From Nitrospirota bacterium (lineage in GTDB: Bacteria; Nitrospirota; Thermodesulfovibrionia; Thermodesulfovibrionales; UBA6898), in contig QKDO01000035.1 in assembly GCA_003252075.1 (NCBI GenBank), positions 1-64,000 on the forward strand: 64,000 bases of DNA, in the 5' to 3' direction. A program made the translations under genes and the position numbers. The notes under the pieces were generated by a model. The model was not told the origin of the DNA. It searched no databases and saw nothing but the letters and a program-made list of their open reading frames with translations. Position 1 is the first letter of the stretch, and each line of letters begins with the position of its first letter. Positions 7,985-64,000 of the stretch are shown piece by piece.

Positions 7985-9367
7985 TCAGGATCGCTGCTTT
8001 TTGCCCTTGAGCGCAACCTTGAGGACCTGCTCCATCGAATCAGCAAAAATGAATTCCATGTCTTGCTTGATATATTTGGGAATATCCTCAAGATCTTTCT
8101 TGTTTCGTTTCGGCAGGATGACCCTTCTGATGCCCATCCGCTTTGCGGCAAGGGTTTTTTCCTTCAGCCCTCCTATCGGCAGCACTCTTCCCCGAAGGGT
8201 GACCTCGCCCGTCATAGCAATGTTCTTATTCACCGGCCTGCCGGTAAAGACAGAAGCTACCGCTGTCGCGATCGTGATGCCGGCAGACGGACCATCTTTC
8301 GGTATGGCACCTGCAGGGACATGGATATGAATATCGGTTTTTGCAAAGACATCGTCGCTGATTCCGAGAGTTTTGGCCTTTGACCTCACATAACTGAGGG
8401 CTGCCTGGGCCGACTCCTTCATCACGTCACCCAGTTGACCCGTAAGGGTAAGATTACCCCTGCCCTTCATGGTCGTAGCTTCAATATAGATAATGTCACC
8501 ACCGGCTTCTGTCCATGCAAGCCCTGTAGAGACACCGATCTCATCATGCTCCATCTCTTCTTCAGGGAGATATTTAGGTACACCGAGAAAACCCTGAAGG
8601 TTTTTCACTGTGACCATAAAGTGCTTTATTTTGCCTTCAGCGATCCTTTTTGCGACCTTCCTGCAGAGATTCGCGATCTCGCGCTCCAGATTACGAACGC
8701 CTGCCTCACGGGTATACTGGGTTATGAGCAAATTCAGCGCAGAGTCCGTGATCGTCAGGATCTTGCTGGTCAACCCGTGTTCATCGAGCTGTTTCGGCAA
8801 AAGATATTTTTTTGCGATGCCAAGTTTTTCTTCCGTAGTGTACCCTGAAAGATAAATGATTTCCATTCTGTCTCTGAGCGGACCCGGTATGGTATCAGCA
8901 AGATTTCCTGTGGTAATGAACATAACATTTGTCAAATCGAATGGTACCGACAGATAGTGGTCTGCAAAGGCGAAGTTCTGCTCCGGATCAAGCACTTCCA
9001 GAAGAGCCGAGGACGGATCACCGCGGAAATCCATGCCGATCTTGTCTACCTCGTCAAGCATAAACACAGGATTGTTCGTGCCTGCCTGCTTTATCCCCTG
9101 GACGATCCTCCCCGGCAAAGCCCCGACATAGGTTCTCCTGTGTCCTCTGATCTCTGCTTCGTCCCTTACTCCTCCCAGCGACATGCGTACGAATTCCCTC
9201 CCGAGCGACCGTGCGATCGACCTTCCGAGCGATGTCTTGCCCACTCCGGGAGGCCCTATAAAACAGAGAATCGGCCCTTTCATCTTTTCCTTGATCTTGC
9301 GCACACTCAGATATTCGAGGATCCTTTCTTTAACCTTTTCAAGGTCATAATGGTCGTCATTCAGCAC
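7985..9367 (-). pseudogene. lon: Lon protease, 3' fragment (ATPase and protease domains)
   Basis: This 460-residue frame encodes the second half of Lon, an ATP-dependent protease. Walker [10 protein letters not shown] is near residue 40 and Walker [12 protein letters not shown] near 100. The protease domain has the catalytic serine in DGPSAG and the lysine in [12 protein letters not shown]. It lacks the N-terminal domain, which is encoded upstream in another frame. The Lon-like frame continues back to about 9422, past the GTG at 9367, and there is no good ribosome site for independent translation. Joining the halves needs 20 extra bases. All catalytic residues are intact, so the lesion may be recent or an assembly error. 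Confidence 0.85.
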
Positions 9368-9386
9368 CTTTTTGGCGGCCTTGATA

Positions 9387-10334
9387 TCAAGATTGTCCTT
9401 GGTGCTTTTTGCCCAGGGAAGTGGTCCTTATGGTAGCAGACTCTGCGCTGTCAGGGTGCATCTTTTCGAGACGTTTCAGCTGTTTTTCCGCCTCTTTCAG
9501 TACTTTCTCAGGCATTCTGGCTTCTTCTATCTTATTTCTGAACTCCCTGATTTCCTCAGCGCGCTCGTCGATATCGCCGAGCTCTTTCTGTATGGCCTTG
9601 AGTTGTTCCCTCAGAAAATATTCACGCTGCGTTTTGTCGATCTCTCCGCGCGCTTCTGACTGTATCTTCTGCTGCACGATAAGAAGTTCGATCTCCCTGC
9701 CAAGGATATCGCTGACGCGTTTCAGCTTTGTAATCGGATCTGCAATCTCGAGTATCTCCTGCGCCTGGTCGGTCTTCAGTCCCAGGTTCGAAGCAACAAG
9801 ATCTGCAAGCCTGCCGGGATCATCAAGGTTCTCGATAACTACCATGATGTCAGGAAGAATGGTCTTCCCGTAAGAGACAGCCTTGTCAAGCTGCTCTTTT
9901 ACCGTTCGGATCTGGGCTTCTTCTTCAATCGTAAGCGCTGCGGGTTTCAACTCTTCCACTTTTGCAACATCAGCAGTCATGAACGGTGTTGTCTGGGTAA
10001 AACCTTTGACCTTCGCTTTTGCAAGTCCCTGCACGAGGATCTTCACCCTCCCGTCAGGAAGCTTCAGCATCCTCATGATCATCCCTACCGTTCCTGTCTC
10101 GTACAGGTCTGAGGACGCAGGGTTTTCAATGTTAAGATCCTTCTGCGTCAGCAGAAGGATCATCCTGCTTTCAGCAAGAGCTTGTTCAATGGCCTTGATC
10201 GAAATCTCTCTTCCCACGAAGAGCGGGATGATCATGTACGGGAATACAACAATATCGCGAACAGGCAAGACCGGGACATTATCAGGGATCTGCGTTTCTT
10301 TATCTATTTCTTTTTCTTTCTCTTTTTCTGCCAT
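9387..10334 (-). pseudogene. lon: Lon protease, 5' fragment (N-terminal domain)
   Basis: This 315-residue frame is the Lon substrate-recognition domain and linker coiled coil. It has VPVLPVRDIVVFPYMIIPLFVGR near residues 20-45 in outline and the linker EYFLREQLKAIQKELG near 235. The start is ATG 10334, preceded by GAAGGAG; the N-terminus is unusually rich in Lys and Glu. After SAESATIRT the frame shifts into a short unrelated tail and stops. The conserved seven residues expected next (consensus YLDWLVD) are missing, and LPWAKST resumes in another frame. Adding 20 bases gives a 2370-base gene, an exact 790 codons and a normal Lon length of 789 residues. Confidence 0.88.
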
Positions 10335-10376
10335 TCCTTCTCCTTCGTACAAATAAGTTCTCCGCGCAGGCTGTTG

Positions 10377-53853: not shown

Positions 53854-53877
53854 CATTCTATGAAAAAGGAGGAAGTT

Positions 53878-54849
53878 ATGATAAAGTTACACATTAAGTT
53901 ATTGCTATTTCTTATTGTTATTGCATGTTTATTTGCCATAACAAGCTTTGCAGGGGCAACAACGGGACCGGAGGCCATGGCACCAGTTGCAGCGCAGTCT
54001 TCCATGCCATGGTGGGCATGGCCGCTCATTCTTTTTGTCGTTACCTTCGGTCTCGGCATCGTTGCTGTCCTCGGTGGCGTGGGTGGAGGAGTACTCTTTG
54101 TGCCGATCATCGGCGGGTTCTTTCCCTTCCATATCGATTTCGTCAGAGGAGCCGGCCTCCTGGTGGCCCTTGCCGGTGCACTTGCTGCCGGCCCGGGACT
54201 CCTGAAAAAGGGTATGGCCGACCTCAGGCTTGCCATACCGGTGGCGCTCATCGCGTCTTCCTGCGCGATCGTGGGAGCCATGATCGGTCTTGCCCTGCCG
54301 GCCAAAGTGGTGAATATCGCCCTCGGCGGGACGATCCTCGGTATTGTTGCGATCATGCTCATGGCCAAGAAATCTGAATTTCCTGAGGTGCCGAAGCCTG
54401 ACAATCTCTCTACCGCGCTCAGGATCAGCGGCGTCTACTACGAACCTTCACTGGGCGAGAATGTCAACTGGCAGATCCATAGAACTCCCCAGGGCCTCGC
54501 CACGTTCATCATTATCGGGGTGATGGCCGGCATGTTCGGGCTGGGTGCCGGTTGGGCTAATGTGCCGGTGCTGAACCTTATGATGGGCGCGCCCCTGAAG
54601 GTTTCGGTTGCTACGAGCAAATTTCTTCTTTCCATCACCGATACGTCAGCGGCATGGATCTATATCAATAACGGCGCCGTGCTTCCGATGATGGTCGTGC
54701 CGTCGATCATCGGCATCATGCTCGGCTCCATTGTGGGCGTCAAGATACTCGCAAAAACCAAACCTGCAGCAATCCGCTATATGGTTATCGGACTGCTGCT
54801 CTTCGCCGGACTGAGGGCATTGCTCAAAGGTCTCGGGATCTGGAACTAA
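53878..54849 (+). CDS. TauE/SafE family permease, module 1
   Basis: The family includes putative exporters of sulfite, sulfoacetate and other organic anions. This 323-residue protein has a signal-like first helix (about 5-24), a short extracytoplasmic segment rich in Ala and Pro, and about eight further hydrophobic segments. The two-fold repeat is visible: AVLGGVGGGVLFVPIIGGF near 65 and MFGLGAGWANVPVLNLMMG near 215, the glycine-rich motifs of each half. I use ATG 53878, with AAGGAGG just upstream; an ATG at 53860 lacks one. It is followed by a companion membrane protein and USP genes. The substrate cannot be inferred. Confidence 0.88.
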   Translation: MIKLHIKLLLFLIVIACLFAITSFAGATTGPEAMAPVAAQSSMPWWAWPLILFVVTFGLGIVAVLGGVGGGVLFVPIIGGFFPFHIDFVRGAGLLVALAGALAAGPGLLKKGMADLRLAIPVALIASSCAIVGAMIGLALPAKVVNIALGGTILGIVAIMLMAKKSEFPEVPKPDNLSTALRISGVYYEPSLGENVNWQIHRTPQGLATFIIIGVMAGMFGLGAGWANVPVLNLMMGAPLKVSVATSKFLLSITDTSAAWIYINNGAVLPMMVVPSIIGIMLGSIVGVKILAKTKPAAIRYMVIGLLLFAGLRALLKGLGIWN

Positions 54850-54859
54850 GGAGGAAACC

Positions 54860-55276
54860 ATGGCTGATAAACTACAAGCAACAGAAGAACAACTCTCCTA
54901 CGCAAAACTGCTCGATAGCGGCATGAAGATCGGCCTTCTCATGCTGGTCATCACCTTCACCATCTATGTTTTCGGCATCTCCACACCCCACGTGCCGGTC
55001 AATGATCTGCCGAGCTACTGGAAGATGCCGGTCAAAGAATATCTCGCGGCTGCCAACATCCATGCGGGATGGTCGTGGCTCTCTGAAATCGGCAAGGGGG
55101 ATTTCCTCAATTTCATCGGCATCGCATTTCTCTCGGCAGTGACTATCTTCTGCTACATCCGGATTATCCCTATTCTTTTCAGGAAGAAAGACAGGGTCTA
55201 TGCAGTCCTGGCAATCGTCGAGGTCCTGGTGCTGGTGCTTGCGGCTTCAGGTATCCTGAAAGGAGGAGGTCACTGA
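54860..55276 (+). CDS. Small membrane protein accompanying TauE/SafE, module 1
   Basis: I do not recognise a named family with certainty; some TauE/SafE permeases have a DUF1634-type partner of similar size. The 138-residue protein has three hydrophobic segments (about 23-41, 83-107 and 113-134). Between the first two is a polar, aromatic-rich loop (residues about 42-82, SYWKMPVKEYL and HAGWSWLSEI). The GGAGG ribosome site and 10-base spacing suggest strict cotranscription with the permease. A subunit or regulator of the permease is likely, as inference from context. Confidence 0.72.
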   Translation: MADKLQATEEQLSYAKLLDSGMKIGLLMLVITFTIYVFGISTPHVPVNDLPSYWKMPVKEYLAAANIHAGWSWLSEIGKGDFLNFIGIAFLSAVTIFCYIRIIPILFRKKDRVYAVLAIVEVLVLVLAASGILKGGGH

Positions 55277-55277
55277 T

Positions 55278-55724
55278 ATGACAGATACCTGCCCCATAAC
55301 GGCGTTACGGACAATGCTTGTAGCAACGGACGGCTCTCAGTACAGTGAAAAGGCCCTGCATGAGGCAATCAATCTCGCCAAATCATGCGGAACAAAGTTA
55401 TACGTTTTGAGCGTTGTCGAGGTCAACCCGGAATACGAAGCGCTCGCCCCAAAGGTAGTTGAAAAGGCAGATGAAGACACGAAGATGTTCCTCGACGCTG
55501 CGCAGAAGTGCGCAGAACGGGAGAAGGTTACCTGCAATACCATCGTGCATAGAGGCGAAGACCCTGCACATTTTATCGTTGAAGAAGCTGACCGGCTGAA
55601 AGTTGATATGATCGTCATGGGAAAACATGGGAAGAGCAAGATGCTCAGAAAGCTCTTTATCGGAAGCGTAACAGCGAAGGTGATATCTCATGCATCCTGC
55701 AAGGTGCTGGTCGTTCCCTACTAG
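55278..55724 (+). CDS. Universal stress protein, single domain
   Basis: The 148-residue protein has the UspA fold. The first strand is MLVATDGSQYSEKALHEA near residue 14, and the ATP-binding end is GKHGKSKMLRKLFIGSVTAKV near residue 115 in outline (the G-x2-G-x9-G-S pattern), closing with SCKVLVVPY. Such ATP-binding USPs often regulate transporters. It starts 1 base after the companion membrane protein with GGAGGAGG upstream. The transcription terminator follows 21 bases after the stop, so this is the end of the first transcript. Confidence 0.92.
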   Translation: MTDTCPITALRTMLVATDGSQYSEKALHEAINLAKSCGTKLYVLSVVEVNPEYEALAPKVVEKADEDTKMFLDAAQKCAEREKVTCNTIVHRGEDPAHFIVEEADRLKVDMIVMGKHGKSKMLRKLFIGSVTAKVISHASCKVLVVPY

Positions 55725-55745
55725 AACAAGCATGCCTGACAGTTC

Positions 55746-55776
55746 AAAAAAGCCCCGTTCGCCGGGGCTTTTTTTT
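55746..55776 (+). terminator. Intrinsic terminator after the first USP gene
   Basis: AAAAAAGCCCC and GGGGCTTTTTTTT form an 11-base stem with loop GTTCGCC, followed by a T-run. It closes the gntR-tauE-USP transcript 21 bases after the USP stop. Confidence 0.92.
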
Positions 55777-55784
55777 GGTATAAT
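55776..55784 (+). promoter_or_regulatory. Extended -10 promoter for the tandem USP gene
   Basis: TGGTATAAT is a perfect -10 hexamer with the TGn extension, starting on the last base of the terminator T-run and ending 26 bases before the ATG at 55811. No -35 hexamer fits. It would give the next USP gene its own transcript despite the terminator. Confidence 0.5.
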
Positions 55785-55810
55785 CGCCTTATCGCAAGGA
55801 GGGAATTACC

Positions 55811-56254
55811 ATGATATCACATATGCTCATCTGCACGGACGGGTCTGAATACAGTGAGGGAGCGGTCCGCGAAGGACTTAGACTGGCAAAAAAACAGCAG
55901 ACCAAGGTTACGGCCTTGACCGTTATTGACTTCAATGCTGAGTTCGATGCACTTGCGCCCAATCTGCTCGAGAAGATGGAAGAAGAGGCTGCAGGACATG
56001 TCCGTGCCGTGAAGGCCAAGGCCGAGAAAGAGGGTATCGCCTGCGAAGGAATGGTCGTTCGGAGTGAGACACCCTATCTGAGTATTGCCGAAGAGGCTGC
56101 GCACCGCGCAGCTGACCTCATCGTTATGGGCAGGAGGGGAAAAACAGGACTGAAAAGGCTCCTTGTCGGCAGCGTTGCCAAGAGGACCATCGGCCATGCA
56201 CCCTGCAATCTGCAATGTCCTGGTGATACCGAGCAAGGCCGCACTTGCCTGTAG
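55811..56254 (+). CDS. Universal stress protein, first domain of a frameshifted tandem USP
   Basis: The 147-residue frame encodes a USP domain, with LICTDGSEYSEGAVREG at the start and MGRRGKTGLKRLLVGSVAKRT near residue 110 in outline, the ATP-binding loop. The ending is not normal: after IGHAPCN the frame continues as LQCPGDTEQGRTCL and stops. The expected last strand CNVLVIP and a second domain are present in another frame. The cause is a tandem 7-base duplication, TGCAATC, near 56201-56215. Translation may still make a single-domain protein lacking its final strand. AAGGAGGG precedes the ATG. Confidence 0.85.
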   Translation: MISHMLICTDGSEYSEGAVREGLRLAKKQQTKVTALTVIDFNAEFDALAPNLLEKMEEEAAGHVRAVKAKAEKEGIACEGMVVRSETPYLSIAEEAAHRAADLIVMGRRGKTGLKRLLVGSVAKRTIGHAPCNLQCPGDTEQGRTCL

Positions 56255-56684
56255 GACTATCCTCGTTGCAACCGATGGCTCAAAGTTCAGTGAGGTCGCA
56301 GCAAAGGAGGCGGTCATCATGGCTAAGACCTGTGGTGCTGCCCTTGTGGTCATTTCTGCCGTACATGCAGAGTCATCAGCGCCCCTTGATATTGTGAGTT
56401 CGAACATGCAGAAGGAGATGATAGCCGGCAGGGAAATGGCAGCCGCTGAGACCAGCGTCAAATTCGTCAGGGAGCTTGCAGAGAAGGAGAACGTCGCCGT
56501 ATCCACGCTCATTTACGCAGGCAGTCCCGCGGATGTGATCATCCATGCGGCAGAGGAAAAAAAAGCGGATCTGATCGTCGTCGGCAGCCACGGCAGAACC
56601 GGCATTGACCGCCTGCTTCTCGGCAGCGTTGCCGAGCGGGTGATCGGCACTGCGGACTGCGCAGTACTGGTGGTTAAAAAATAA
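56196..56684 (+). CDS. Universal stress protein, second domain of the same broken gene
   Basis: The frame carries CNVLVIP, then the second USP domain: TILVATDGSKFSEVAAKEA, a mid-domain helix rich in Glu and Lys, and GSHGRTGIDRLLLGSVAERV with the ATP-binding pattern, closing DCAVLVVKK. It overlaps the first fragment. Removing seven duplicated bases from 55811-56684 leaves 867 bases, exactly 288 residues plus stop, the same size as the intact tandem USP at 62323. If translated separately the domain could start at ATG 56196, but no ribosome site is evident there. Its 3' end is 6 bases from the convergent response regulator gene. Confidence 0.72.
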   Translation: MHPAICNVLVIPSKAALACRTILVATDGSKFSEVAAKEAVIMAKTCGAALVVISAVHAESSAPLDIVSSNMQKEMIAGREMAAAETSVKFVRELAEKENVAVSTLIYAGSPADVIIHAAEEKKADLIVVGSHGRTGIDRLLLGSVAERVIGTADCAVLVVKK

Positions 56685-56690
56685 GGGTAA

Positions 56691-58052
56691 CTACGCTTCC
56701 TCCAACCCGTACTTCTTGAGCTTTCTCCAGAGAGAGACGCGGTCGATCCCCAGGATCTGGGAAGCGATGGTCTTATTGCCGCCCACTTCCTGAAGCACCC
56801 ACGTGATATACGACAACTCCTGGTCTTCCAGCGACGGATACTTGCCCTCCTTTTTCCTGAATGTCCTGATGCTCAGCTCCTTCAGGTCCTCGGGAAGTTG
56901 CGCGATCTCGATCATCGGGCCATTCGTCAGCGCAACCCCCCGCTCAATAATATTTTCAAGCTCTCTGACATTGCCGGGGAAGTCATAATTCATGAGGAGA
57001 GCAAACACTTCCTGTGCAATATCTGAAACCACCTTCTTCTGGATGACAGAATGCTTGTTCAGGAAATAGTAACTGAGCAGAGGAATATCGTCTTTCCGCT
57101 CCGAAAGCGGGGGTATCCTGAATGAGACCACATTCAGCCTGAAATAAAGGTCCTGCCTGAACTGCCCTGCCTTTATCATTTCCTGGATGTCCCGGTTCGT
57201 CGCCGCAAGGAACCGGACGTCGATCTTTACCGGCTCGTTGGCGCCAAGCCGCAGCACCTCGCGCTCCTGAATCACCCGAAGAAGTTTTACCTGCATGGAA
57301 GGCGGCATCTCGGTTATCTCGTCCAGAAACAGCGTGCCGCTGTTTGCCATTTCGATCAGACCTTTTTTCAGGTTGCCGGCCCCGGTGAACGCCCCTTTTT
57401 CATGACCGAAGAGCTCGTTCGTCAGCAGCTCTTCAGTAAAGGCTCCACAGTTGACGGCCAGGAACGGGCCGTCAGCCCTTTGGCTCATGAAATGGATGTA
57501 ACGGGCAAAAAGCTCCTTGCCGGTCCCGCTCTCGCCTGTTATGATCACGCTACAGTCTGTGGGGGCAATCTGGCGCGATGTCTCGAGCAGTTTCTGCACG
57601 ACGGGGTTCTGGGTGATGAACTTCACCTTTCCGGCAAACTTGTCGATCTGTTCCCGAAGCTGCTGGTTCTCCCTTTTCAGCATCACCTTCTCAAGGGCCT
57701 CTTTAACGACCTTACGCACCTCGTCGAGCTTGAACGGTTTGGTTATGTAATCGTACGCACCTTTCTTGATCGCCAGGATAGCCGACTGCAGGCTGGCGTA
57801 ACCCGTGATCATGATTACCTCCGTGTCCGGTGAAAGCTCCTTGCTCCTCCTGAGGATCTGGTTGCCGTCAACCTTCTCCATCTTCAGGTCCGTAATCACA
57901 AGATCGAACTGCTGCTCCTCCAAAAGTTTCAGGGCGTTGGTGCCACTCTGCGTAGAGGTGACCTCATAGCCCTCCTTCTTCATGATATGTTCGAGGTTCC
58001 GCAATGCGATCTGCTCATCATCAATGATCAGTACCCTGCTCTTCTGCTGCAC
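56691..58052 (-). CDS. NtrC-type sigma-54-dependent response regulator
   Basis: The 453-residue protein has a receiver domain (about 5-120) with acidic DD at 11-12 and phosphoacceptor Asp55 in VITDLKM, plus Lys in ITKPFK near 105. The AAA+ domain has Walker A GESGTGKE (173-180) and the sigma-54 contact loop GAFTGA (220-225). The C-terminal Fis-type helix-turn-helix (NKTIASQILGIDRVSLWRKL) binds DNA. It follows the histidine kinase by 2 bases on the same strand, so the two are a pair. The intact GAFTGA means it should activate sigma-54 promoters, such as the one ahead of module 2. Confidence 0.95.
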   Translation of the reverse strand: MQQKSRVLIIDDEQIALRNLEHIMKKEGYEVTSTQSGTNALKLLEEQQFDLVITDLKMEKVDGNQILRRSKELSPDTEVIMITGYASLQSAILAIKKGAYDYITKPFKLDEVRKVVKEALEKVMLKRENQQLREQIDKFAGKVKFITQNPVVQKLLETSRQIAPTDCSVIITGESGTGKELFARYIHFMSQRADGPFLAVNCGAFTEELLTNELFGHEKGAFTGAGNLKKGLIEMANSGTLFLDEITEMPPSMQVKLLRVIQEREVLRLGANEPVKIDVRFLAATNRDIQEMIKAGQFRQDLYFRLNVVSFRIPPLSERKDDIPLLSYYFLNKHSVIQKKVVSDIAQEVFALLMNYDFPGNVRELENIIERGVALTNGPMIEIAQLPEDLKELSIRTFRKKEGKYPSLEDQELSYITWVLQEVGGNKTIASQILGIDRVSLWRKLKKYGLEEA

Positions 58053-62322: not shown

Positions 62323-63189
62323 ATGGAACGTTACCGGAAGATACTGGTTGCGGTAGACGGTTCAGAGTCGAGCAGGAACGCCTTCCGTCAGGCCTGCAGG
62401 ATAGTCCATCATGACAAGAGCTGGATCACGGCTATTGTGGTCATCCCCCCCTACCAGGACCAGTTTCAGACACTCAGCGTCAAGGAAAAAGCAAGCAAGG
62501 CACTGAAGGATGAAGGCCTGAAGATCCTTGACGACATACAGGCGATCTCACGGGAAGAAGATGTCTATGTTAAGTTGCTGATCGAGGAAGGCAGCCCTGT
62601 AGATGCCATCCTTGATACTGCAGAGACGAACTTCTTTGATCTCGTCGTGACCGGGCGCCGGGGCAGAAGCAGACTCGAGCGTTCACTCATTGGTTCGGTA
62701 ACTTCGCGCATCATCGGCCACAGCAAATGCGACGTACTGGTTGTACCGAAAAACACCATGGTGGTATGGAACTCTCTGCTCGTGCCGACCGACGGCTCCC
62801 CGTACAGTGCTTCATCTGCCCGGAAGGCAATCGAACTGGCCAGGGCATATAGCGCGTCCCTAACGGTGGTATCCATCGTCGATGTTACCGAAGAGTTTCA
62901 GGCCCAGGCCCCTGATGCTGTCGAAAGTCTGGTCAGTCAGGCATGGCAGCATGTCGATGATGTGAGCAGCAGAGCACATGAACTCGGTGTTCGTGCGAAC
63001 CGTTTTGTCAGAGAAGGCGAGTCCTATAAGGTGATAACGGATATGGCGCACAAACAGAGGACGGATATGATTGTCATGGGAAGCCACGGAAGAACGGGAG
63101 TGAAAAGACTGTTCATGGGCAGTGTTACGGAAAAAGTGATCGGTCATGCCGCCTGTCCTGTTCTGGTCGTCAAGGCACTCGAAGCATAA
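62323..63189 (+). CDS. Tandem universal stress protein, two domains
   Basis: The 288-residue protein has two USP domains. Domain 1 (about 1-145) begins ILVAVDGSESSRNAFRQA and has GRRGRSRLERSLIGSVTSRI near 115. Domain 2 (about 147-288) begins LLVPTDGSPYSASSARKA and has GSHGRTGVKRLFMGSVTEKV near 250; both contain the G-x2-G-x9-GS ATP-binding pattern. Its length equals that of the frameshifted tandem gene at 55811 after correction. The gene follows the module 2 companion protein by 32 bases. It is probably an ATP-binding regulator of the permease; that is inference. Confidence 0.93.
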   Translation: MERYRKILVAVDGSESSRNAFRQACRIVHHDKSWITAIVVIPPYQDQFQTLSVKEKASKALKDEGLKILDDIQAISREEDVYVKLLIEEGSPVDAILDTAETNFFDLVVTGRRGRSRLERSLIGSVTSRIIGHSKCDVLVVPKNTMVVWNSLLVPTDGSPYSASSARKAIELARAYSASLTVVSIVDVTEEFQAQAPDAVESLVSQAWQHVDDVSSRAHELGVRANRFVREGESYKVITDMAHKQRTDMIVMGSHGRTGVKRLFMGSVTEKVIGHAACPVLVVKALEA

Positions 63190-63398: not shown

Positions 63399-63439
63399 AG
63401 GAGCTGAGACCTGCGTAGTGCGAGCGGGGCTCAGCTCCT
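63399..63439. other. Hairpin between convergent genes
   Basis: AGGAGCTGAG (63399-63408) and CTCAGCTCCT (63430-63439) form a perfect 10-base stem with a 21-base loop. It lies between the small SGEHE gene and the convergent lon-type gene, whose stop codon overlaps the right arm. There is no T-run on either side, so it may stabilise message ends or be a factor-dependent terminator. Confidence 0.35.
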
Positions 63440-64000
63440 CAAAACAAGACCGACCGCTTCCTCAATCCGCTCAACATAGCTGATCTTAAGGTCCTTGAGA
63501 ATATCGGTCGGCAACTTCTCGATGTCTATCCTGTTCCTGAGTGGTAGGATCACATGCCTTACCCCTGCCCTGCCTGCTGCAAGAACCTTTTCCCTTATCC
63601 CTCCTACCGGCAGTATCCTTCCGCTGAGGGTTATCTCCCCGCTTATGGCGACCTCACGACGGGCGGGCCTTCCGGTCAAAAGGGAAAGAAGCGAAAGCGC
63701 GATCGTACTGCCGGCTGAAGGTCCGTCCTTCGGTATTGCACCTGCCGGGACATGGACGTGGATGTCATGATCTTCAAAAAAATGCTCCGGTATATCGTAC
63801 TGCCGGGCATTGCTCCTGATATAGCTGAGCGCTGCCTGTGCAGACTCCTTCATGACGTCCCCGAGGGAGCCGGTCAGAATGAGCTCCTGCTTTCCCGCCA
63901 TATTTGCCGACTCAATGAAGATGATTTCGCCGCCGATATCGGTCCAGACCAGACCCGTGGTAACACCGACCCTGTCCTGTTCTTCCGTGACTTCGAAGTA
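63431..64000 (-). CDS. lon: Second Lon-type protease, N-terminus beyond the window
   Basis: The frame is open to base 64000 and encodes the last 189 residues of a Lon protease. At the right edge it reads YFEVTEEQDRVGVTTGLVW, the start of the Lon peptidase domain. The catalytic serine is in KDGPSAGS and the lysine in GGIREKVLAAGR, both intact. Sequence differs clearly from the copy at 7985 (for example ISYVERIEEAVGLVLRS at the end), so it is a paralogue, not a repeat. It suggests the genome has at least two lon genes, one of them frameshifted here. Confidence 0.92.
   Translation of the reverse strand, partial: YFEVTEEQDRVGVTTGLVWTDIGGEIIFIESANMAGKQELILTGSLGDVMKESAQAALSYIRSNARQYDIPEHFFEDHDIHVHVPAGAIPKDGPSAGSTIALSLLSLLTGRPARREVAISGEITLSGRILPVGGIREKVLAAGRAGVRHVILPLRNRIDIEKLPTDILKDLKISYVERIEEAVGLVLRS

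Follow-up and report, generated by a model that had tools for sequence, protein, structure and literature searches.

The window that we analyzed, a stretch of 64,000 nucleotides from a Nitrospirota bacterium, carries on its plus strand a tandem universal stress protein (USP) gene whose two Usp (PF00582) domains are encoded in two different reading frames (Table 1). It is preceded, in order, by genes encoding a TauE/SafE-family transporter, a small protein that matches no Pfam family, and a USP with a single domain, and the same three genes stand beside the tandem gene in the relatives examined as well. Between the single-domain and the tandem USP genes, a terminator-like hairpin (AAGCCCC-GTTCGCC-GGGGCTT plus a T run, 55750-55776) can be discerned by eye; it is absent from the scan list and is followed by TATAAT.

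Table 1. Features of the tandem USP locus and its surroundings, in window coordinates.
Feature	Position	Strand	Remarks
TauE/SafE-family transporter gene	53860..54849	+	Upstream; conserved neighbourhood
Single-domain USP gene	55278..55724	+	Upstream, intact; adjoins the tandem gene in relatives too
Shine-Dalgarno AGGAGG of the domain 1 frame	55797-55802	+	
Tandem USP gene, broken	55811-56684	+	874 bases; two Usp domains in two frames
USP domain 1 reading frame, 147 aa	55811..56254	+	Pfam Usp 1.7e-29
Candidate separate domain 2 frame created by the shift, 162 aa	56196..56684	+	ATG 56196; putative, read from the sequence
Exact 7-base tandem duplication CTGCAAT-CTGCAAT	56203..56216	+	One copy in six close relatives
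USP domain 2 coding sequence, shifted frame, conserved	56217..56684	+	TAA 56682-56684; Pfam Usp 6.2e-34
Tandem USP paralog, intact, 288 aa	62323..63189	+	~35% identity

Both domains contain an ATP-binding-type motif of the form G-2X-G-9X-G-S/T, which we read from the alignment as GRRGKTGLKRLLVGS and GSHGRTGIDRLLLGS. The domain 1 frame is shifted past residue 133 and terminates at TAG 56252-56254. The frame changes where two copies of CTGCAAT adjoin, at 56203-56209 and 56210-56216, and where the DNA reads TGCAATCTGCAATG. The original prediction had described a 7-base duplication that breaks a tandem USP gene, and had placed TGCAATC twice in succession near 56201-56215. An exact 7-base tandem duplication is indeed present, but its unit is CTGCAAT; TGCAATC occurs only once and is followed by TGCAATG. 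It was also correct that dropping one copy restores one frame of 867 bases and 288 residues, the same as in the relatives. The match in length to the tandem USP at 62323, which had been offered in support, is true but constitutes weak evidence, because that protein is a paralog.

Orthologs provide much stronger evidence. Among 61 genomes including the window's own, a DNA search returned six close orthologs with 72–92% DNA identity; in each, the unit occurs once, at the same offset, and the frame stays open for 288–289 aa. Two more distant homologs (58% protein identity) are intact too, and the single uninterrupted frame across both Usp domains that is absent in this genome, where the shift falls at 56203-56216, is present in eight of eight homologs. 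In the closest relative, the Nitrospiraceae MAG UBA6898 (92% identical), the sole gap across the gene is these 7 bases. The relatives compared are mostly metagenome assemblies, named Nitrospirae or Nitrospiraceae MAGs, which suggests a position in Nitrospirota for the window as well. Because all of the intact homologs are uninterrupted and the close ones have a single unit, the extra CTGCAAT copy is a real difference in this assembly. As a DNA motif, on the other hand, the repeat is not above chance, with four exact period-7 tandems observed in the window against 3.9 ± 2.1 in simulations; what counts is the insertion relative to all relatives rather than the repeat itself.

The truncated product consists of domain 1 without its last β-strand, followed by a 14-residue foreign tail (LQCPGDTEQGRTCL). 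In the relatives, CNVLVIP forms this C-terminal strand, which is an established element of the Usp fold. The truncated domain retains the nucleotide-binding motif G-2X-G-9X-G-S, and the product is not a normal or clean one-domain USP. AlphaFold modeled the intact ortholog with moderate confidence (pLDDT 64.4), placing a strand at 132–136 with low local confidence, and its model of truncated domain 1 alone (pLDDT 46.5) was too poor for use.

Could the break nevertheless have produced two working proteins, one from 55811 and another, bearing the strand lost by the first, from an internal start? The shift brings ATG 56196 into the reading frame of domain 2, and AGAGGA lies nine bases ahead of it at 56181-56186, so that a separate protein of 162 aa spanning the whole of the conserved domain 2 could conceivably be translated. 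However, the coding of KRTIGHA in the orthologs fixes both the ATG and AGAGGA, and because of this they would not constitute evidence of a selected start site. Moreover, domain 1 is left without its last strand (according to the model, with low local confidence), and the arrangement occurs in one genome only. We consider such a functional split very improbable. Ribosomal frameshifting was set aside from general knowledge, as no slippery signal was seen by eye and the intact orthologs need none.

Known tandem USPs, such as E. coli UspE (PDB 5CB0) and the P. mirabilis proteins (3OLQ/4WY2), match PF00582 twice and likewise have two Usp domains per chain of ~290–316 residues; theirs is a single chain, whereas in this window the chain is broken. 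The intact ortholog of the window gene matches UspE over residues 3–287 but falls far under the equivalog cut-off (NCBIfam NF008380, 81.6 vs. 227 bits), and because of this score it is best classified as a tandem USP that is not UspE. Furthermore, the G-2X-G-9X-G-S motif of UspE is reported in the C-terminal domain (PMC4750201), whereas the window gene has the motif in both domains.

How old is the break? Compared with UBA6898, dN/dS is 0.23 in domain 1 and 0.19 in domain 2. The changes assigned to this branch comprise 5 nonsynonymous and 13 synonymous in domain 2, and 4 nonsynonymous and 1 synonymous in domain 1, the latter being too few to interpret. Domain 2 is thus still under purifying selection with no sign of long decay, which makes the break either recent or confined to the assembly. 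The gene itself looks dispensable, since a close ortholog is missing from 2 of 7 congeners and 21 USP domain matches occur in this genome, a paralog redundancy through which the loss may cost little.

It is somewhat better than an even chance, in our judgment, that a normal tandem USP gene was thrown out of frame by a 7-base tandem duplication that arose spontaneously and recently, most likely through replication slippage. We infer that slippage copied the 7 bases in the sequenced population of the bacterium and thereby shifted the frame. Translation from 55811 would then yield domain 1 in truncated form, with the last strand gone, and domain 2 would either go unmade or be produced to some extent from the internal ATG 56196; with ~21 USP domains in the genome, the loss would probably be tolerated. 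The insert copies the adjacent 7 bases exactly and so bears the signature of a templated duplication. We favor mutation over assembly error because of this perfect match to the neighboring bases and because there is no other mark of a join, although this lean is slight.

The original prediction had named sequencing error as an equal possibility, and an error must still be taken seriously. Overlapping contig ends or two strain variants might have been joined with a 7-base overlap left uncollapsed, in which case the gene in the living organism would be intact; this assembly or consensus error is a substantial possibility, though we place it short of even. The case for a recent mutation is weakened because an error would be expected to yield the same sequence and an identical pattern of selection, including a domain 2 without decay, and because this genome is a draft in 146 contigs compared with MAG relatives. 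Such faults do occur in these assemblies: the UBA6898 contig (15163 bases) has six NN joins (7283, 8061, 8714, 9527, 12338, and 14355), which are scaffold gaps of the wrong size in a public MAG, and those examined closely hide ~55–71 bases and break genes. In addition, the window has another broken gene, lon, from a conserved part of which 20 bases are missing. On the other hand, the window contains no N runs, either at the duplication site or elsewhere. Errors of this kind also appear to be uncommon, since no other frame-breaking tandem unit of at least 7 bases was found in the ~175 kb of this genome scanned (units of 4–5 bases being noise), and ~30 genes of two other contigs of this genome contain no convincing gene break.

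A comparison of 47 window genes with UBA6905 revealed two real breaks, in the tandem USP gene and in lon; the other apparent splits were overlapping-frame or end-of-gene effects. The classical lon gene (7985-10352, minus strand) lies in two frames, with the 20 bases missing near 9421 relative to UBA6905. These counts are equally compatible with a small set of genuine pseudogenes and with sporadic faults of assembly. We also considered a misjoin exactly at the duplication. Over 54000-57900, identity to UBA6898 goes from ~98–99% upstream of 55.8 kb to ~86–95% downstream, perhaps owing to recombination or differing constraint. However, the jump near 55.8–56.3 kb is spread over several hundred bases rather than being sharp at the duplication, which speaks against a join there, and part of the difference between the domains also appears against UBA6905; this evidence is not decisive.

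Could the duplication instead serve as a reversible switch, with slippage between one and two copies alternately restoring and abolishing the tandem protein within the population? Phase variation usually affects surface structures, whereas the product here is probably a cytoplasmic stress protein. In simple-sequence-repeat phase variation (contingency loci), as here, the frame is set by how many copies are present of a unit whose length is not divisible by three; the window repeat differs in having two copies, in being unconserved, and in showing no variation. It is not a hypermutable many-unit tract, consisting of two 7-base units in a window where period-7 tandems occur at chance frequency, and copy-number variation and a conserved repeat are absent, the six close relatives having a single unit each. 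No second allele was found in the assembly, nor in the plasmids or viral contigs searched.

The closest precedent comes from pneumococcus, where, according to PMC4022640 (citing Waite 2001, 2003), the capsule genes cap3A, cap8E, and tts are reversibly inactivated by spontaneous short sequence duplications. As in those cases, the window gene has a tandem duplication within an open reading frame from which precise reversion is possible; it differs in having no demonstrated polymorphism or reversion, and reversion of a 7-base unit would be rare. Insertions of up to nine bases are expected to revert at ≤ ~1e-5 (PMC4022640). Exact reversion at a low rate could therefore occur, as it could with any duplication of this kind, but this does not amount to an evolved switch, a reading that we regard as highly unlikely. 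A switch between a two-domain and a one-domain protein had been proposed for this gene, and that proposal is not supported, given the two copies, the lack of a repeat in the relatives, the one allele, and a truncated product that is not a normal one-domain USP. We give as little credence to the related suggestion that the duplication is a natural, revertible toggle between a fused tandem USP and two separately translated domains, using a pre-existing internal ATG and ribosome-binding site.

The end of the window contains part (63431-64000) of the gene for a second Lon-type protease of ~666–675 aa (contig 63434-65458, minus strand). In this protein, a CheY-like receiver domain is embedded in the chain, after the N-terminal helical part and ahead of the AAA+ domain, and the Pfam matches are Response_reg (1.9e-32), AAA, Lon_lid, and Lon_C. 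The DNA is 83% identical to that of UBA6905, with the frame unbroken except for one compensated pair just past the start, and the receiver-bearing Lon looks conserved. Our literature search found no clear description of a receiver-controlled Lon, and such a protease would merit separate study.

Overall, the broken tandem USP gene is an ordinary case in which the switch is unsupported and the error-or-mutation reading is upheld, and it serves as a caution against taking a short tandem duplication that shifts the frame in a single draft genome as evidence of a switch. What is useful is that intact orthologs exist, that the neighborhood is conserved in the relatives examined, and that the lesion either arose recently or is an artefact. 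Should reads show both allele states, the locus would provide a simple natural test of fused versus split USP domains.
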